Below are positions 36,676 through 64,000 of a stretch of 64,000 nucleotides of DNA, one piece after another. The translations under genes were made by a program, and so were the position numbers. Source of the DNA: Streptomyces rimosus (lineage in GTDB: Bacteria; Actinomycetota; Actinomycetes; Streptomycetales; Streptomycetaceae); the NCBI RefSeq assembly GCF_008704655.1, contig NZ_CP023688.1, positions 4,092,001 through 4,156,000 of the forward strand. The letters are read 5' to 3'. Numbering within the stretch: position 1 is the stretch's first letter; each line of letters begins with the position of its first letter. The notes under the pieces were generated by a model. That model was not told the DNA's origin. It was given only the letters and a program-made list of their open reading frames with translations, and did no database searches.

Positions 36676-36926
36676 ATGGGCGACTCCCTTGTCTGCCGTG
36701 GCGGGGTGGGGCGGTATGCGGCGAGGTGGGCGAAGTGCGGCGTGTGGCAGCCGGGCCCGGGTGGGGTCGGCGGGCGCATTCTCCCTTTCCTCGGACGGGC
36801 CGGGTAGGGGACGTAACCGGCCAATGCGGTGGTTGACGGCGCGACTTGACGGGGCCGGTCGGCCGGGGCCGACGGGGCTCGGGTTGCGCGAGGGCCGTTG
36901 TCAGTGGGGTGGTGTGCAATGGGGTC

Positions 36927-38048
36927 ATGAACGGGGATGTGCGGGTGACGTACGAGCAGGTGCTGGCCTGGCGGCTGCGGCGGCAGGGCCTCCTGCCTCG
37001 TACGGACACGTCGGCCGAGGAGATCGTCGGGCGGCTCGCGGGGGTGCAGGCGCAGGTGGCCTCGGCGGCGGAGCTGGCGGTCGCGGTGCGACAGGAGAAG
37101 CCCTCGGCGGCGGGTGTGCGGGAGGCGCTGGAGGCGCGTTCGCTCGTCAGGACGTGGGCCATGCGGGGGACGCTGCATCTGTTGCCGGCCGGCGGGGCGG
37201 GGGCGTATCTCTCCCTGCTCGCCGCCGCGCGGACGTGGGAAAAGGGCGCCTGGCAGCGGGCGTTCGGGGTGAGCCCGCGGCAGATGGAGGCGCTGGGCGA
37301 GGCGGTCGGGGAAATCCTGGACGGGCAGGTGCTGACCCGGCGGGAACTGACCGAGGCGGTGCTCGCGCGGCCGGGCCTGGCCGGACTCGGGGAACAGCTG
37401 GCGTCCGGGTGGAGCACGGTGCTCAAGCCGTTGGCATGGACGGGGCGGCTGTGCCAGGGCCCGGCGCGCGGGCAGCACGTGACGTTCACGTCGCCCCGGT
37501 CGTGGCTGCCGGGGTGGCGCGGCATACCGGGCCCGGAAGAGGCTGCGGCGGCCGTGATACCGGCGTACCTGCGCGCGCACGGGCCGGCGACGCCCGCGGT
37601 GTTCGACGCATGGCTGCTGCGGGGCGCCACGCGCAAGGCGGTGCTGCGGGGCTGGTTCGAGGCGCTGGGCGACCGGGTGGTGGAGGTCGAGGTGGACGGC
37701 GACCGGGCGTATGTGATGTCCGACGACGCGGAAGACCTCGCCCGCACCGAACCCCACCACGGCCTCCACCTCCTCCCCGCCTTCGACCAGTACGTCCTCG
37801 CCCCCGGCACCTCCGACACCCGCCTGATACCGGCGGCCCACCGCGGCAAGGTGAGCCGGGCGGCGGGGTGGATATCCCCGGTGGTACTCCTCGGCGGCCG
37901 CGTCGTGGGCACCTGGTCCCTGACCGGTTCGAGGGTGGAACTCACGACGTTCGACGGCTCGGCGCTGCCGGGGGCGGAGCTGGAGGAGGAGGTACGGCGG
38001 TTGGGGGTTTGCGTGGGGGAGGAGTTGGTGGTGGTGGGGGGCGGGTGA
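36927..38048 (+). CDS. Winged-helix DNA-binding (AlkZ/HTH_42 family) protein
   Basis: The 373-residue protein has the HTH_42/DUF1006 architecture of the AlkZ and AlkX DNA glycosylases, three winged helices around a DNA groove. The QxQ catalytic-type motif is visible as GVQAQVASAAELAVAVR (near residue 38). TWAMRGTLHLLPAGGAGAYL is the family's second hallmark, and LLPAFDQYVLA lies in the C-terminal half. AlkZ unhooks interstrand crosslinks made by natural products; most relatives have no known lesion. ATG 36927 is chosen because the conserved region starts soon after. Confidence 0.85.
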   Translation: MNGDVRVTYEQVLAWRLRRQGLLPRTDTSAEEIVGRLAGVQAQVASAAELAVAVRQEKPSAAGVREALEARSLVRTWAMRGTLHLLPAGGAGAYLSLLAAARTWEKGAWQRAFGVSPRQMEALGEAVGEILDGQVLTRRELTEAVLARPGLAGLGEQLASGWSTVLKPLAWTGRLCQGPARGQHVTFTSPRSWLPGWRGIPGPEEAAAAVIPAYLRAHGPATPAVFDAWLLRGATRKAVLRGWFEALGDRVVEVEVDGDRAYVMSDDAEDLARTEPHHGLHLLPAFDQYVLAPGTSDTRLIPAAHRGKVSRAAGWISPVVLLGGRVVGTWSLTGSRVELTTFDGSALPGAELEEEVRRLGVCVGEELVVVGGG

Positions 38049-38264
38049 GGGGAGCCGGTAGGGGGCCGGGGTGCCGCGAGCTGCGGCCTGGCTCTTGAAC
38101 GGCGTCGGCCGACTTTCGGGAGGTTGGTGGTCAGCATGTACAGCAGCGGGACGAGAACGCCCAGCAGCGTGATGGCGACGGCGACGACGGGCGGCCACGT
38201 CGACACCCACCTCCCGGGAGTCGGCCGACGCCGTGCAAGCGTCGAGCGGCAGCTCGCCGTCGGC
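38049..38264. other. Non-coding gap with 23-bp inverted repeats
   Basis: Arms 38101-38123 and 38210-38232 match as inverted repeats at 21 of 23 positions (core GGCGTCGGCCGACT), enclosing 86 bp. The enclosed minus strand could encode a hydrophobic stretch (VVAVAITLLGVLVPLLYML), but without a clear gene around it. It looks like a remnant. Confidence 0.5.
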
Positions 38265-38447
38265 ATGAGCCTGCTGGACGAGCGCGGCATGGCCCTGGCC
38301 CAGCCGGCCGAACGGGTCGGTGTGACCGTCGCCAGCCTCTCCGTCCTGAAGAACGACTGGGCCAGGGCGATCCGCTACCCCACGCTCAGCGCCATCTGCC
38401 GCGGGCACGCCGCGCCGCGCCGTTGTCAGTGGTGGATGCGAAGGTGA
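38265..38447 (+). pseudogene. Degenerate YozG-like helix-turn-helix gene
   Basis: The frame from ATG 38265 encodes LLDERGMALAQPAERVGVTV with ASLSVLKNDWARAIRYPTLS and AICR, which closely resembles the small Cro/CI-type regulators with the pattern AERVG(I/L)TPAN(L/I)AVLKNGRAKAVR. The family's C-terminal CQPGDLL part is missing and replaced by unrelated HAAPRRCQWW residues, and the NGRAKAVR helix has changes. With no ribosome site and a broken end it is probably a pseudogene. Its usual partner, a DUF2975 membrane protein gene, is absent. Confidence 0.6.
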
Positions 38448-38451
38448 GCCC

Positions 38452-40119
38452 ATGCGGTGGGTTGTCGGGGGATCCGGGGATGGCGGGGTGGTGGCTTGTG
38501 CTGTGGACGGGGGCGGGCGGGCCGTGGGGGTGCCGGTCCGGGCGGGGAGCGTGGTGGAGGCCGTACGGGCGTGTCCGCAGGCGGAGCGGTGGGTGTGGCG
38601 CTCCACCGCGGAGACGTACCGCAAGCTGCTCGCGGCGGGGGTGCGTGTCGAGCGGTGCTACGACGTGGAGGCGGCCGAGGCGCTGCTGATCGGGCACGAG
38701 GAGGGGCAGTCCGGCCAGCCGCGGTCGCTGGCCGCGGCGTGGGCGCGGCTGCACCGGCTGCCGGTGCCCGACGACCCGCCGGTGCGCGGCGCGGAGACAC
38801 AGCCGTCGCTGTTCGAGCCGGGCCCGGTGCCGCTGCCGCCCGGCGTGGACGAGTTCACGGCGCTGCTGGAGGTGTACGCCGGGCAGCTTGAGCGTACGGA
38901 GCGGGCCGAGCACCCGGACCGGATGCGGCTGCTGCTGGCCGCGGAGTCGGCCGGAATGCTCGTGGCCGCCGAGATGGGGCGCGCCGGGCTGCCGTGGCGG
39001 GCGGACGTGCACCGGGAGTTGCTGGACGAGCTGCTGGGCGAGCGCTATCCGGGCGGGCTGGAGCCGCGCCGGATGGCGGAGCTGGCCGATGAGGTGTCGC
39101 GGGCGTTCGGAGAGGGCGTGCGGGTGCGCCCCGACCTGCCCGCCGAGATCGTCAAGGCATTCGCCGGCGCCGGGATCACGCTGCGCTCGACCCGTAAGTG
39201 GGAGTTGCAGGAGGTACGGCACCCTGCGGTGGCGCCCCTCCTGGAGTACAAGCGGCTGTACCGGCTGCACACCGCGCACGGTTGGTCGTGGTTGCAGCAG
39301 TGGGTCCACGAGGGCCGCTTCCGCCCGGAGTACCTGCCCGGGGGCACGGTTTCGGGCCGCTGGACCACCAATGGCGGCGGCGCGCTGCAGATTCCGAAGG
39401 TGGTCCGCAGGGCCGTGGTCGCCGACCCGGGCTGGCGGCTGGTGGTCGCCGACGCCGAGCAGATGGAGCCGCGGGTGCTCGCGGCGGTCTCGCGGGACCG
39501 CGGGCTGATGGAGGTGGCGGGCAGCGGCCGCGACCTGTACGCGGACCTGGCGGCGCGGGCGTTCGGGGGCGACCGCGATCAGGCCAAGCTGGCGCTGCTG
39601 GGGGCCATTTACGGCCAGACGTCCGGGGACGCCCTCAAGCACATGGCGGACCTGCGGCGGCGCTATCCCGACGCGGTGGAGTACGTGGACACGGCCGCGC
39701 GGGCGGGCGAGGAGGGCCGTCTCGTACGGACCTGGCTGGGGCGTACGTGCCCGCCCGCCTCCGTGGCGCCGCCCGACGAGGCGGGCCTGCCGCAGGAGGA
39801 GGCACCGGCGTACGGCAGCACGGCGGGCGCCCGGGCCCGCGGCCGGTTCACCCGCAACTTCGTGGTGCAGGGCAGCGCCGCCGACTGGGCGCTGCTGATG
39901 CTGGCCGCGCTGCGCAGGTCGCTGGCACCGCTCCGGGCGGAGCTGGTCTTCTTCCAGCACGACGAGGTGATCGTGCACGCCCCCGAGGAAGAGGCCGGGG
40001 CGGTGGCCGGATTCGTGGCGGAGGCCGCCGAGCTGGCGGGGCGGATCGCGTTCGGCGGGACGCCGGTCCGGTTCCCGTTCAGTACGGCGGTGGTGGAGTG
40101 CTATGCCGATGCGAAGTGA
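38452..40119 (+). CDS. DNA polymerase I-like protein (family A, second copy)
   Basis: The 555-residue protein has a degenerate N-terminal 3'-5' exonuclease-like region without visible catalytic carboxylates and no 5' nuclease domain. The family A polymerase core is intact: motif A VVADAEQMEPRVLA (Asp334), motif B RDQAKLALLGAIYGQ, and motif C FFQHDEVIVH (His503, Asp504). It is shorter than PolA, so it is an accessory polymerase, perhaps for repair. It begins four bases after the HTH remnant. Its cellular job is not known. Confidence 0.88.
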   Translation: MRWVVGGSGDGGVVACAVDGGGRAVGVPVRAGSVVEAVRACPQAERWVWRSTAETYRKLLAAGVRVERCYDVEAAEALLIGHEEGQSGQPRSLAAAWARLHRLPVPDDPPVRGAETQPSLFEPGPVPLPPGVDEFTALLEVYAGQLERTERAEHPDRMRLLLAAESAGMLVAAEMGRAGLPWRADVHRELLDELLGERYPGGLEPRRMAELADEVSRAFGEGVRVRPDLPAEIVKAFAGAGITLRSTRKWELQEVRHPAVAPLLEYKRLYRLHTAHGWSWLQQWVHEGRFRPEYLPGGTVSGRWTTNGGGALQIPKVVRRAVVADPGWRLVVADAEQMEPRVLAAVSRDRGLMEVAGSGRDLYADLAARAFGGDRDQAKLALLGAIYGQTSGDALKHMADLRRRYPDAVEYVDTAARAGEEGRLVRTWLGRTCPPASVAPPDEAGLPQEEAPAYGSTAGARARGRFTRNFVVQGSAADWALLMLAALRRSLAPLRAELVFFQHDEVIVHAPEEEAGAVAGFVAEAAELAGRIAFGGTPVRFPFSTAVVECYADAK

Positions 40120-57113: not shown

Positions 57114-57881
57114 TCACATACGCGTAGCGTCCCAAAGGGGCACCCGGTCCGCGATCGCCGCGAGCAGCTCGGCCTGCCGGTCCCGGAGGTAGAAGTGGCC
57201 TCCGTCGAACCGTACGCACTCCGTGTCCGCGGTGGTGGCCCCGGCCCAGGCGGCCGCGTCCGCCGGGTCCACATACGGGTCCGCTTCTCCGTACAGCACG
57301 GTGACGGGGCAGGTCAGCGCGGTGCCGGTACGCGGCCGGTAGGCGTCCACGGCCCGGTAGTCGCCGCGCATGCCGGGCAGCAGCAGCTCCAGGAGCTCGG
57401 GGTGCTCGGTGATCGCGTCGGCGGTGCCGCCCATCTCCCGCAGTTCCCGTACGAGGGTGTCGTCGGAGGCGTCGCCCAGCCCGCCCGGGGGCCGTCGTCC
57501 GGGCGCGTTCTGAGCGGACGCGAACAGGCGCGCCGGTGTCCGGCCGGCCCGCTGCATGCGCAGCGCGACCTCGTAGGCGACCAGAGCCCCCATGCTGTGC
57601 CCGAACAGGACGCAGGGCCGGTCGGCGGTCCGCAGCAGGTCTTCGGCCGCCAGGTCGGCGAGCCGGTGGAGGTCGTCCACGGGGTCTTCCGGCAGGCGGT
57701 CCTCACGGGCCGGGTACTGGGCCACCAGGACCTCGATACGGGCGGGAAGGGCGCGGGCCCAGTCCCGGTAATAGCTCGCGGCTCCCCCGGCGTGCGGAAA
57801 ACACACGGCCTGGATATCGGCATCCGGCCTCGGGGTGTAGCGGCGGAACCAGGTGGAGTGCGCGACTGATCGGGCGTGCAA
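57114..57881 (-). CDS. Type II thioesterase of the NRPS locus
   Basis: The 255-residue editing thioesterase removes wrong or stalled acyl groups from the carrier domains. It has the nucleophile Ser96 in LFGHSMGALVAYE, the N-terminal VCFPHAGGAASYYRDWARAL and the His in FDGGHFYLRD, characteristic of the type II family. It follows the MbtH gene by 87 bp and the NRPS gene beyond, all in one direction, as is common in NRPS operons. Confidence 0.95.
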   Translation of the reverse strand: MHARSVAHSTWFRRYTPRPDADIQAVCFPHAGGAASYYRDWARALPARIEVLVAQYPAREDRLPEDPVDDLHRLADLAAEDLLRTADRPCVLFGHSMGALVAYEVALRMQRAGRTPARLFASAQNAPGRRPPGGLGDASDDTLVRELREMGGTADAITEHPELLELLLPGMRGDYRAVDAYRPRTGTALTCPVTVLYGEADPYVDPADAAAWAGATTADTECVRFDGGHFYLRDRQAELLAAIADRVPLWDATRM

Positions 57882-57967: not shown

Positions 57968-58186
57968 TCAGGCCGCCTCGCCGTCCATGGCGTCGGCGAG
58001 GCTCTTCGGGCGCATGTCCGTCCACGTCTCGTTCACGTAGTCCACGCACGCCTGGTGGCTCTCCTCGCCGAAGCGGATCTCCCAGCCGTCGGGGATCTCC
58101 GCGAAAGCGGGCCACAGGGAGTGCTGGTTCTCCGCGTTGACCAGGACGTAGTAGGTGCCCTCGGGGTTCTCGAACGGGTTCTGCAC
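57968..58186 (-). CDS. mbtH: MbtH family protein
   Basis: The 72-residue chaperone binds the adenylation domains and is needed for their folding or activity. The sequence MQNPFENPEGTYYVLVNAEN with QHSLWPAFAEIPDGWEIRFG and VNETWTDMRPKSL carries the conserved Trp residues and the NxExQxSLWP pattern. It lies 58 bp after the NRPS gene and 87 bp before the thioesterase gene. Confidence 0.97.
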   Translation of the reverse strand: MQNPFENPEGTYYVLVNAENQHSLWPAFAEIPDGWEIRFGEESHQACVDYVNETWTDMRPKSLADAMDGEAA

Positions 58187-58244
58187 GGTGAGCTCCTTGC
58201 TCTGGGGACTGCTCTGGGATTGCTTCGGGATTTACCGGGTGTTC

Positions 58245-61200
58245 TCAGGTGAGTTTCTCGGACAGGACAGCGGTGATCTTCGTGAGCGCCGACCGCTGTT
58301 CGAGCATGTCGGAATGGGCGCAGTCGACGGGGTGTATCTCGATATGCCCTTCGGTGTACGGCGCCCACGATTCGGGACGCAGGTCGGCGGCCTGATCCTC
58401 GGTGGCCCGGAAGAACACCGGGTCGCCGTGGAAGACGGCAGGGCGGAATTCCCTGCTCGCCCGCACGCCCCGGCCGATGATCCGGCCGATGGCCAGCAGG
58501 CGTTCCGTACCCAGTGCCGCGTAAGTGATCGGGTCGTCCGCCAGGAGCCGGGCCAATTCCTCCGGAGTGGGGGCCGTGCCGCCGAATTCGGCGGGGTCGA
58601 TTCCGAGGAATTCCAGCAGGGCCGTCTGCTCCTCCTCCTGGTCGGTGGTGGACGGGGCCGCCCCCGGCACCGGCGGGTAGCTGTCCAGCAGGGCCAGCAG
58701 CGCGACCTCCTCGCCGTCCTCCTGGAGCCGGGTGGCCATGGCGTGCGCGATCAGCCCGCCGAAGGACCAGCCGAGCAGGTGGTACGGGCCGGTGGGCTGT
58801 ACGTCGCGCAGCCGCGTCACGTACGCGCGGGCCATCTCCTCGATCGTGTCCGGCAGGCCGGTCTCGCCGTCCCCGTCCATGCCGTCGGCCTGGAGCGCGT
58901 AGACCGGCCGGTCCGGGTCGAGGCCGCGCAGCAGGCCGAAGTAGTCCCAGCCCAGACCGCCCACGGGGTGCACGCAGAACAGCGGGGCGCGGTCGCCGCC
59001 GGTCCGCAGGGGCAGCAGCGGCTCGAACCCGCCGGGCCCGCCGTCCAGGCCGGATTCCGCGAGCCCGGCCACCGTCGGGTGCTCGAAGAGGCTGCGCAGC
59101 GGGAGCCGTACGCCGAGCGTGCGTTCGACGCCGTTGACCACCTGGAGCACCAGCAGCGAGTGGCCGCCCAGCTCGAAGAAGTTGTCGTCGGCGGTCACCG
59201 TGTCGACGCCGAGCGCTTCCGCGAAGACCTCGCACAGGGCGCGTTCGACGGGGGTGCGCGGGGCCCGGCCGCCCGAGGAGGCGTAGGCCGGTGCGGGCAG
59301 GGCCTTCACGTCCACCTTGCCGCGGGAGGTGACCGGCAGCGCGGGCAGCGCGACGAAGGCCGCGGGAACCATGTAGTCGGGCAGCCGCTCGGCGGCGAGT
59401 TCCCGCAGGTCGGCAGTGTCGGCGGCGCCCACGAGGTAGGCGACGACGCGCCGGTCCCCCGGCACGTCCTCGCGGACCGTCACCTTGACCTGCTCGACCG
59501 AGGGGTGCCCGGCGAGCACGGTCTCGATCTCGCCCGGCTCGATGCGGAAGCCGCGCACCTTCACCTGGTCGTCGGCCCGCCCGACGAACTCCAGCTCGCC
59601 CCGGGCGTTCCACCGCACCACGTCGCCGGTGTTGTACATCCGCGACCCGGGCGGGCCGTACGGGTCGGCGACGAAGCGCTGGGCGGTGAGCCCGGGGCGG
59701 TTCCCGTAGCCCCGGGCCAGCCCGGCGCCCGCGACGTGGAGCACTCCGGGCACGCCCGGCGGGACCAGCCGCAGGGACGGGTCGAGGACGTACAGGCGGG
59801 TGTTCACGACGGGCCCGCCGATGGGGACCGTGTCGCGGGGGCCCGGCGCGCAGACCGCGATGCTGGCGTCCACGGTGGTCTCGGTCGGACCGTAGGAGTT
59901 GATCACGCGGTGGTGTGCGGCCCAGCGCTCCACCAGGCCGGGCCCGGACGCCTCACCGGCGACGATCACCGTACGGCCGGCCGGCAGCCGTGCCGGGTCC
60001 AGCCGGGCGAGCACCGCGGGCGGGATCGTCGCGTGGGTGACGCCCTGCTCGGTGAGCAGGCGGACCAGCGGCTCCCCCGGGCCGCGCTCGTCGTCGGCCG
60101 CGACCACCAGGGCCGCGCCGGTGAGCAGGCCCATGGTGATCTCCCACACCGAGGTGTCGAAGGAGACCGCCGCGAACTGGAGCACCCGGCTGCCCGCACC
60201 GGCCGCCGGCCACCGGCGGTGGGTGGCCACCAGCGAGGAGATGCCCGCGTGGGAGACGACCACGCCCTTGGGGCGGCCGGTGGAACCGGAGGTGTAGATC
60301 GTGTAGGCCGCGTGCGACGGCAGCAGCGCGGCGCTCCGCTCGGCGTCACCGATGTCGTGCGACGGCTGCTCCGCCAGGTCCGGTTCCCGCTCGTCGAGGA
60401 GTACGACGGGGAGCGAGCGGCCTGCCGTGTCCAGCACCCCGCTGACCTCGGCGAGGCTGACGGCGAGCCGTGGCGCGGTGTCCCGCAGGATGAAGTCGAT
60501 CCGCTCCTGCGGATAGGTGAGATCCAGCGGGAGGTAGGCGGCGCCGGTCTTCAGCACCGCCAGCAGGGCCACGAACAGGTCGGTGCCGCGCGGCAGCGCC
60601 AGGGCGACGAACTGCTCCGGGCCGGCTCCCCGTGCGATCAGCAGCCGGGCCAGGCGGTTGGCGCGGGCGTTCAGCTCGCCGTACGACAGCGTGTCGCGGC
60701 CCGCGCCGTCGCGGGCCGGCGCGACGAGCGCCGGGGCGTCCGGGTCCGCTGCCACCACGCTCTCGAACAGCTCCGGGAACGTCGTGGGTACGGCGCCCGC
60801 GTCAATGTGCTGCCCCTGGTCGAGCAGGCGTGCCGTCTCCGGCCCGGACAGCAGGTCGATCTCGCCGACCGGCCGCGCCGGGTCCGCGGTCACCGCGGTG
60901 AGCACGCGGGTCAGCCGGTCGGCCAGCGACCGGGCCGTGGACTCCTCGAAGAGGTCGGTGGCGTATTCGAGTTCGCCGTCGATGCCGGACGGCTCGCCAC
61001 CGGGCTCGTAGCTCTCCGCGAGGTTGAAGGTGAGGTCGAACTTGGCCGCGACGTTGTCCACGGAGTACGGCTCGGCCTCGACGCCCGGCCAGTCGGCCGC
61101 CGGGCGCGCGGGGCCGCCGTTCTCCATGGCCAGCATGACCTGGAAGAGCGGGTGGCGCGCCATGGACCGGGCCGGTTGCAGCACTTCCACCAGCCGCTCG

Positions 61201-62096
61201 AAGGGCACGTCCTGGTGGGCGTAGGCGGCGAGGCCGGTCTCCCGTACGCGGTGCAGCAGTTCGGCGAAGGACGGGTTGCCGGTCAGGTCGGTGCGCATGA
61301 CCAGGGTGTTGACGAAGAACCCGACGAGGTCGTCCAGGGCCTGGTCGGTGCGGCCCGCGACGGGGCTGCCGATCGGCACGTCCTCCCCCGCGCCCAGCCG
61401 CGACAGCATCGTGGCCAGCGCCGCCTGGACGACCATGAACACGGTCGCGTCGTGCGCCCGCGCCAGCTCGGCCAGCTTGCCGTGCAGCGCGGCGTCGAGG
61501 TGTACGGCGACGCTGCCGCCCCGGTGGCTGCTGACCGCCGGGCGGGGCCGGTCGAAGGGCAGGTCCAGCTCTTCGGGCAGGCCGGCCAGGGCGCGCCGCC
61601 AGTAGGCGACCTGCTCGCTGATCGGGCTGTCCGGGTCCTGTTCGTCGCCGAGCACCCGCCGCTGCCACAGCGTGTAGTCCGCGTACTGCACCGGGAGCGG
61701 CGCGAACGACGGCTCCGTACCGGCGGCCCGTGCCGCGTAGGCGACTTGCAGGTCGGCGGCCAGCGGCGCCAGGGACTGGCCGTCACCGGCGATGTGGTGC
61801 AGTACGAGGGCGAGGACCGCTTCGCCGTCGGCCACCGGGAACAGCGCGGCGCGCAGCGGTATTTCGGCGGTCAGGTCGAAGGCGTGGTCCACGAACCGGT
61901 CGACGGCCGCGGGCAGTTCCTCCTCCGTGGTACGGGCGGCCTGCCAGCCGGGCACGTCGTCCACGACACGGACGACCTGCTGGGGAGCCCCGTCCACCTC
62001 GGGGAAGACCGTACGCAGGCTCTCGTGCCGGTCCAGTACGTCCACCAGGGCCGCGCGCAGGGCCGCCGGGTCGAGGCTGCCGCGCAGGCGCACCAC
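58245..62096 (-). CDS. NRPS, downstream part: C-A-PCP-TE module after the in-frame stop
   Basis: This is the second visible module of a nonribosomal peptide synthetase: condensation (HHIAGDG at 100-106), adenylation (about 440-930, with [12 protein letters not shown]), carrier (Ser980 in DNFFELGGHSLL) and thioesterase (Ser1111 in GWSFGG). My alignment to GrsA gives the specificity code D-T-W-T-I-A-S-V-D-K. It resembles an aromatic code in six positions, but Asp331 fits basic residues; the substrate is uncertain. From the coding start shown (GTG 62096) no ribosome site is seen. The first 17 residues of the condensation domain lie upstream of it, directly after the in-frame TAA. Confidence 0.85.
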   Translation of the reverse strand: MVRLRGSLDPAALRAALVDVLDRHESLRTVFPEVDGAPQQVVRVVDDVPGWQAARTTEEELPAAVDRFVDHAFDLTAEIPLRAALFPVADGEAVLALVLHHIAGDGQSLAPLAADLQVAYAARAAGTEPSFAPLPVQYADYTLWQRRVLGDEQDPDSPISEQVAYWRRALAGLPEELDLPFDRPRPAVSSHRGGSVAVHLDAALHGKLAELARAHDATVFMVVQAALATMLSRLGAGEDVPIGSPVAGRTDQALDDLVGFFVNTLVMRTDLTGNPSFAELLHRVRETGLAAYAHQDVPFERLVEVLQPARSMARHPLFQVMLAMENGGPARPAADWPGVEAEPYSVDNVAAKFDLTFNLAESYEPGGEPSGIDGELEYATDLFEESTARSLADRLTRVLTAVTADPARPVGEIDLLSGPETARLLDQGQHIDAGAVPTTFPELFESVVAADPDAPALVAPARDGAGRDTLSYGELNARANRLARLLIARGAGPEQFVALALPRGTDLFVALLAVLKTGAAYLPLDLTYPQERIDFILRDTAPRLAVSLAEVSGVLDTAGRSLPVVLLDEREPDLAEQPSHDIGDAERSAALLPSHAAYTIYTSGSTGRPKGVVVSHAGISSLVATHRRWPAAGAGSRVLQFAAVSFDTSVWEITMGLLTGAALVVAADDERGPGEPLVRLLTEQGVTHATIPPAVLARLDPARLPAGRTVIVAGEASGPGLVERWAAHHRVINSYGPTETTVDASIAVCAPGPRDTVPIGGPVVNTRLYVLDPSLRLVPPGVPGVLHVAGAGLARGYGNRPGLTAQRFVADPYGPPGSRMYNTGDVVRWNARGELEFVGRADDQVKVRGFRIEPGEIETVLAGHPSVEQVKVTVREDVPGDRRVVAYLVGAADTADLRELAAERLPDYMVPAAFVALPALPVTSRGKVDVKALPAPAYASSGGRAPRTPVERALCEVFAEALGVDTVTADDNFFELGGHSLLVLQVVNGVERTLGVRLPLRSLFEHPTVAGLAESGLDGGPGGFEPLLPLRTGGDRAPLFCVHPVGGLGWDYFGLLRGLDPDRPVYALQADGMDGDGETGLPDTIEEMARAYVTRLRDVQPTGPYHLLGWSFGGLIAHAMATRLQEDGEEVALLALLDSYPPVPGAAPSTTDQEEEQTALLEFLGIDPAEFGGTAPTPEELARLLADDPITYAALGTERLLAIGRIIGRGVRASREFRPAVFHGDPVFFRATEDQAADLRPESWAPYTEGHIEIHPVDCAHSDMLEQRSALTKITAVLSEKLT

Positions 62097-62144
62097 GAGC
62101 GGCAGGTTGTAGGTGGCGTTCGGGCCTTCGAGGCGGTTGAGGAA

Positions 62145-62147
62145 TTA
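62145..62147 (-). other. In-frame TAA stop splitting the NRPS gene
   Basis: The frame upstream ends [13 protein letters not shown]. The next codons, in the same frame, read FLNRLEGPNATYNLPLVVR, exactly what follows the C1 motif (SxAQxRLW/YxL). The stop occupies the Trp/Tyr position of the motif. TGG would need two changes to TAA and TAC one. It could be a real null mutation, an error in the sequence, or a functional split. Confidence 0.9.
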
Positions 62148-64000
62148 GAGCCTGCGCTGCGCGAAGGACAGCGGCACGCGCTCCGGCCGCGGCACCGGGG
62201 CCAGGGCCTCCCGTACCGTCCCGGCCGGGTCCAGGCGCTCCGCGAGCCCCGCCACGGTCGGCGCCTCGAACAGCGCCCGTATCGGCAGTTCCGCGTCCAG
62301 GAGCGTACGGACCCGGCCGATGAGCCGGGTGGCCAGCAGCGAGTGGCCGCCGAGGTGGAAGAAACTGTCGTCGATGCCGACCTCGGGCACGCCCAGCACC
62401 TCCGCGAACGCCTCGCACAGGACGCGTTCGGTGGCGGTGCGGGGGCCGCGCCGGGCCGCCCGCGGCGCCCCGGTGTGGCCGGGCGCGGGCAGCGCCTTGT
62501 GGTCCAGCTTCCCGTTCACGGTCAGCGGCAGCCGCTCCAGCGCCACGAACGCCGAGGGCACCATGTACTCCGGCAGCCGCGCGGCGGCGAACTCCCGCAG
62601 CACGTCATGGTCCGTGCCGTCCGCGGCATCCCCGGCGGACACCACGTAGGCCACCAGCCGGTGGTCCCCGGGAGTGTCCTCGCGTGCGATGACCGCGGCC
62701 TGCGCGACGGCCGGGTGCGCCTCCAAAGTGGCCTCGATCTCGCCGAGTTCGATACGGAACCCGCGGATCTTCACCTGGGTGTCGGCCCGGCCCAGGTACT
62801 CCAGCTCCCCGGCCTCGTTCCACCGCACCACGTCGCCCGTGCGGTACATCCGGGTGCCGGGCGCGCCGAACGGGTCGGCGACGAAGCGCTGCGCGGTCAG
62901 GCCGGGGCGTCCGAGGTAGCCGCGGGCCAGGCCCGCGCCGGCGACGTACAGTTCGCCGGCGGCTCCCGGGGCGGCGGGGCGCAGTCCGGCGTCCAGCACG
63001 TACGTGCGCAGGTCCGGGATGGCCTCGCCGATGAGGCTGCCGGTGGCCCCCTGTGCCGTCTCGCGGTCGAGCGGCAGGTGGGTGACGTGGACGGTGGTCT
63101 CGGTGATGCCGTACATGTTGACCAGGCGCGGCGCGTCGTCGGCGTGCCGGGCGTACCAGCCCGCCAGACGGCGCAGTTCCAGCGCCTCGCCGCCGAAGAC
63201 GACGTAGCGCAGGGCGAGCGGTACGTCCGTCTCCTCGTCGGCCTGCATGAGCTGGTAGAAGGCCGACGGGGTCTGGTTGAGGACGGTGACCCGTTCACGG
63301 GAGAGCAGTCGCAGGAAGTCCCGCGGCGAACGGCTCACCTCGTGCGGTACGACCACCAGGCGGCCGCCGCTCAGCAGCGGCCCCCACAGCTCCCACACCG
63401 AGAAGTCGAAGGCGTAGGAGTGGAACAGCGTCCAGGCGTCGTCGGCGCCGACGTCGAACCAGTGCCGGGTCGCCGAGAAGAGCCGTACGACGTTGGCGTG
63501 CGGTACGACCACGCCCTTGGGCCGCCCGGTCGAGCCCGATGTGTAGATCACGTACGCCGGGTTCCCGGGCAGCGGCCGCGCGGACGGTGCCCTCTCGGCC
63601 TCGTCGTCCCAGGCCCGCAGCGCGTCGAGCGACAGCCTGCTGCCGGGCGCGCCGTCCAGATCCCGCGCCGTCTCGGTGATCACGACCACCGGTGCGGTGT
63701 CGTCGAGCATGTACGCGATGCGGTCCGCCGGGTAGCCGGGGTCCACCGGTACGTACGCGGCACCGGACTTGAGCACCGCGAGCAGGGCGGCGACGAGGTC
63801 CGCCGAGCGCGGCAGCGCCACCGCGACGAAGGTCTCGGGTCCGGCGCCGTGCGCGGTCAGCGCCCGCGCCCAGCGCTCCGCGCGGGCGTCCAGCTCCGCG
63901 TAGGTCAGGCGCTCGTCCTCGTGGACGACCGCGACCGCGTCCGGCACGGCCCGCGCGCGGGCCGCGAACAGTTCGGGCAGCGTGGCGTCCGGGGCCCGGT
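62145..64000 (-). CDS. NRPS, upstream part: A(Thr)-PCP module with C1-motif stub, 5' end outside window
   Basis: The partial gene enters from the right edge and encodes an adenylation domain ([50 protein letters not shown]), a carrier domain ([13 protein letters not shown]) and the first residues of a condensation domain, ending at the TAA. The specificity residues, read by alignment to GrsA, are D-F-W-N-V-G-M-V-H-K, which is the known threonine code. The MbtH gene downstream fits. The peptide made by the whole assembly line cannot be named from here. Confidence 0.9.

Follow-up and report, generated by a model that had tools for sequence, protein, structure and literature searches.

A peptide synthetase gene of Streptomyces rimosus has probably been interrupted by a real and very recent nonsense mutation. 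The mutated gene, the second of a ten-module synthetase, would be a null allele that loses the last module together with its release enzyme. The stop is a TAA on the minus strand (62147-62145), located inside the sequence SFAQRRL*FLNRLEGPNATYNLP. Positions refer to the window, the whole stretch of 64,000 nucleotides analysed, which corresponds to positions 4092001-4156000 of a single-contig 9.36 Mb genome and whose right-hand end carries the synthetase on the minus strand (Table 1). The stop falls within QRRL*FLNRLEG, the C1 motif of the synthetase's final condensation (C) domain. The reading frame is identical on either side of the TAA and unbroken on both flanks, and in a profile search of the whole genome a single Pfam C-domain match of 315 bits, flagged '1 TAA', spans the codon directly, which is more than coincidence would give. 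Two statements of a preliminary description of this DNA are confirmed: the stop is in frame within the C1 motif, with the phase kept on both sides, and one synthetase gene is cut in two. A 4140-aa frame is followed in the same frame by a piece of 1299 codons.

The upstream frame, which ends at the TAA, extends past the window to chromosome position 4166567. The downstream frame ends at a TGA (58247-58245), and its first GTG is at 62096. It contains C, A, T and thioesterase domains in this order (PF00668, PF00501, PF13193, PF00550 and PF00975), as befits a last module, and the Pfam match to its C domain begins at position 16 of the 456 in the profile. Gene one (8363 aa, with its start codon taken mechanically) and gene two (4140 aa) overlap by 4 bases, the end of the former with the start of the latter. 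Whole-genome matches gave ten adenylation (A) domains and sixteen condensation-type domains in the synthetase stretch, the latter divided by motif reading into ten C and six epimerisation (E) domains. Gene one, gene two and the downstream piece thus make up a ten-module peptide synthetase line. The modules of gene one are C-A-T, three times C-A-T-E, C-A-T and C-A-T-E; gene two contains twice C-A-T-E and then C-A-T (modules 7-9); and C-A-T-thioesterase comes after the stop. Apart from the TAA codon, all 41,415 coding bases of the synthetase are open. Adenylation codes were read at motif positions in modules 4, 5 and 9 and partly in module 10, and no substrate is claimed from them. At least 77 loci, at 44-56% identity, were present in the named genome collection.

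Table 1. Features of the synthetase region, in positions of the window.
Feature	Position	Strand	Basis
TAA in C1 of last C domain; TGG in sister genome G048	62145..62147	-	Frames and relatives
3' end of 4140-aa upstream frame (module 9)	62148..64000	-	Frames, Pfam
Module 9 A domain	about 62913-63968	-	Pfam
Module 9 T domain	about 62232-62423	-	Pfam
Downstream open piece, 1299 codons, last module	58245..62144	-	Frames, Pfam
Downstream piece, C domain, without first 15 profile positions	about 60822-62144	-	Pfam
Downstream piece, A domain	about 59706-60767	-	Pfam
Downstream piece, T domain	about 59055-59240	-	Pfam
Downstream piece, thioesterase	about 58284-58985	-	Pfam
First GTG after stop, without ribosome-binding site	62094..62096	-	+0.9 kcal/mol with 16S tail
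Best-paired GTG in first 150 codons after stop (codon 61)	61962..61964	-	-7.2 kcal/mol
Separate type II thioesterase gene adjoining synthetase, intact	57114..57881	-	Frame, Pfam

Two further features of the window were observed. An antisense open frame of 1948 codons runs on the plus strand through the whole broken region (58155-63998); in all likelihood it reflects the GC-rich coding strand opposite and is not a gene. Some 18 kb from the synthetase, a gene for an AlkZ-like DNA glycosylase stands beside one that matches DNA polymerase A (36846-40119).

We collected 179 distinct C1-like motifs by a regular expression over the loci fetched by then. The codon in question was TGG in 131 of them and encoded Leu in 31, Phe in 14, and His and Arg in one each; the single stop was the TAA described here. 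The genome as a whole is rich in peptide synthetases, with 106 condensation-family and 122 AMP-binding matches. Two of the 106 C-domain matches were flagged for a stop, one for this TAA and the other for a TGA at 2351463. The latter was rejected as a parallel case, since there a gene simply ends, as it normally would, where its domain does. True internal stops accordingly number one among the 106 C-domain matches and none among the 122 A-domain matches, and no stop was present among those listed of the 199 matches in five other genomes.

These counts bear on whether the TAA is an error in the assembled consensus, the gene of the strain being intact. Such an error would agree with the Trp codon or residue of the relatives described below, and with a synthetase that is otherwise intact and constrained, as in a working gene. 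It would require, however, that two adjacent bases outside any homopolymer be wrong, and the consensus looks clean, because neither the A-domain matches nor the other 105 C-domain matches contain a true internal stop. We therefore regard an assembly error as unlikely.

The ancestral state of the codon was deduced from three relatives. In the sister genome G048, whose DNA is 92-94% identical here, TGG stands in place of the stop within a continuous frame of 3120 aa. The database protein P0241, which stands for 90 members and is named as from Streptomyces albus subsp. albus, has Trp at the stop position; it shares 95.7% identity with the 1299-residue downstream piece and 96.5% with 3414 residues of the upstream chain. 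A more distant protein, P0242, also has Trp there (74% identity to the downstream piece and 72% to the upstream chain), and its length of 5445 aa corresponds to an undivided form of gene two plus the downstream piece. The orthologous site was found in 2 of 392 genomes of the genus, namely this one and G048, by a pattern search allowing up to three mismatches, which can miss orthologues with more; the first DNA search had left 246 of the 392 genomes unscored. Among a list of 61 relatives that does not include G048, the site was matched in this genome alone. A protein search with the upstream piece was considered for its best 120 of 1429 matches, ranked by summed repeats, so that orthologues could be missed.

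Because G048 has TGG and both proteins have Trp, the comparison of sequences indicates that TAA is the derived state and Trp the ancestral one. The preliminary description had allowed either Trp or Tyr as the ancestor; the relatives speak for Trp and leave no place for Tyr. Its remark that TGG requires two changes to become TAA holds, and with Trp in the relatives two adjacent bases must have changed. It had also proposed that a second strain with TGG would mean an assembly error. A TGG there does not by itself imply an error; that of G048 shows that the stop is derived.

On the plus strand, the change from TGG to TAA is one from CC to TT. A single tandem event most likely explains this two-base change best, because a long-lived first stop (TAG or TGA) predicts other lesions in the 41 kb and none was seen. 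This reading is not compelled, since CC/TT doubles are not rare between the two genomes: they make up 22 of the 295 adjacent double differences between this genome and G048 in 61.5 kb, with the direction unassigned. CC-to-TT changes are reported for mycobacteria in which UV damage is bypassed by an error-prone route, and tandem changes likewise for Caulobacter (PMC3901139). The conserved Trp codon would most probably have turned into TAA through a single tandem change of CC to TT, such as arises when dipyrimidine lesions, from UV or otherwise, are bypassed with errors. The change fits a UV origin without proving UV. A UV signature sought in the comparison of the two genomes was uninformative, because the direction of the changes cannot be assigned.

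A cytosine base editor or UV in the laboratory would also give CC to TT, and the stop could in principle have been made deliberately or by mutagenesis in the sequenced strain. The site would be within reach of an editor that uses an NG PAM (G at 62159, 62161 or 62163, judged by eye). With an NGG PAM, however, both cytosines lie at protospacer positions 1-2, outside the editing window of positions 4-9 given in PMC11227558. Together with the lack of any pointer to an engineered strain, this makes a laboratory origin highly improbable.

The age of the stop was judged from constraint and from further decay. Against G048, dN/dS was 0.182 before the stop (1785 codons), 0.274 after it (1299 codons) and 0.21 in gene one; after the stop it was 0.347 in the C domain, 0.295 in the A domain and 0.175 in the T-thioesterase part. 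Five neighbouring comparisons gave values between 0.02, for part of an ABC gene, and 0.47. Residues changed in this genome alone numbered 9 in 1739 columns before the stop and 13 in 1296 after it, compared with 6 and 8 in P0241 alone and 15 and 16 in G048 alone. Since the raised rate after the stop is common to the intact P0241, no relaxation specific to this lineage is apparent, and the slight rise is no sign of decay in this genome. Insertions and deletions relative to G048 in the pieces of genes two and three were all multiples of three, save two that lie in G048 itself. A sense codon in the orthologues, the lack of further decay and the lack of lineage-specific relaxation are what a recent nonsense mutation would leave.

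The frame and constraint kept on both sides could also mean that read-through or suppression of the TAA yields enough full-length protein, yet recency accounts for them equally. TAA is usually a tight stop, and the TTC that follows is not known as a context for read-through. We consider sufficient read-through extremely improbable.

The G048 copy of the gene has breaks of its own. It lacks 94 and 113 bases, which leaves frames of 789, 1505 and 3120 aa; the gaps are on contig C31, near 84810 and 89338. They begin at matching points of modules 7 and 8 (own positions 2314 and 6942, an offset of 4628), and a 140-base exact repeat lies close to them at an offset of 4629. Modules 7 and 8 (chromosome positions 4157670-4166546) are near-duplicates, 75% identical over 6.2 kb of DNA and sharing this exact repeat, which points to duplication or conversion of modules. 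The first gap lies about 45 codons after the point where P0241 begins. Because the gaps match in near-duplicate modules and P0241 begins near the first of them, collapse of repeats in draft assemblies is the likelier cause, and the breaks were rejected as a case of parallel decay.

We then considered whether translation could restart after the stop. Possible starts in the first 150 codons were scored by the energy of their duplex with the 16S tail, along with eight reference starts, which ranged from -10.0 to -0.3 kcal/mol. The preliminary description had seen no ribosome site in front of the first GTG (62096), and the scores bear it out: this GTG and the one at 62093 both gave +0.9 kcal/mol, against -10.0 at the start of gene two. 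A functional split calls for a start with a ribosome site close to the cut, and these first two GTGs have none. The best GTG, at 61964, lies inside the reference range, and among CTGs after the stop those at codons 20-37 gave -4.9 to -6.2 kcal/mol and that at codon 77 gave -9.5. Solved C domains align to the downstream piece from its first residue onward; a late, weak internal start may exist, but one at 61964 would cost the C domain about 60 more residues, some 75 in total.

A working split, with translation of the last module beginning at an internal codon and the nonapeptide passed to it in trans, would make use of the moderate pairing at 61964 and would account for a downstream piece that is open and constrained. 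There are natural synthetase lines divided into subunits that meet via docking domains, with the borders between domains, and the present line would likewise consist of three proteins instead of two. Unlike in those lines, however, the cut is inside C1, the first GTGs are without a ribosome site, and a start at 61964 would remove part of the C domain. The split was not encountered in any relative, since all three orthologues that were inspected (G048, P0241 and P0242) continue past the codon. No near-identical protein of 714-2273 aa was among the best 120 protein matches, where a longer cluster representative could hide one. A working split is thus very unlikely, and we give only a slim chance to a functioning three-protein line whose last module, started internally, does without C1 and receives the nonapeptide in trans. 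If this were true, a C domain could function without its N-terminal edge.

The nonsense mutation, as the preferred reading, would have consequences for the product. Translation would end just past the carrier domain of module 9, and the last module, which is responsible for residue 10 and contains the releasing thioesterase, would not be made, or in traces alone. The nonapeptide chain would then stall on the module 9 carrier, unreleased, and no finished product would form. It had been left open whether the line is dead or the second part is made separately; because the last module with its thioesterase is lost, a dead line is the likelier outcome and a working separate protein the less likely one. 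One may speculate that the adjoining type II thioesterase frees the stalled chain as a shunt product.

Comparable losses are described in two reports on fungi, one on sister taxa in which an ascochitine polyketide synthase is abrogated (PMC6763771) and the other on cluster polymorphism within a single species (PMC5711037). As in those cases, one lineage carries a broken copy of a large biosynthetic gene that is intact in relatives, and the rest of the cluster stays. The present case differs in that the synthetase is a bacterial one, in which one codon has changed, apparently in tandem, without further decay. Among the open-licence papers listed, no title or abstract opening dealt with nonsense codons in condensation domains of Streptomyces. 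The phenomenon is most likely an ordinary case of a costly secondary metabolite lost recently through a single codon. Genome mining that counts domains would report an intact ten-module cluster, since domain matches extend over the stop, although the product should be absent in this strain. For culture, the relatives with an intact frame would be the ones to grow.
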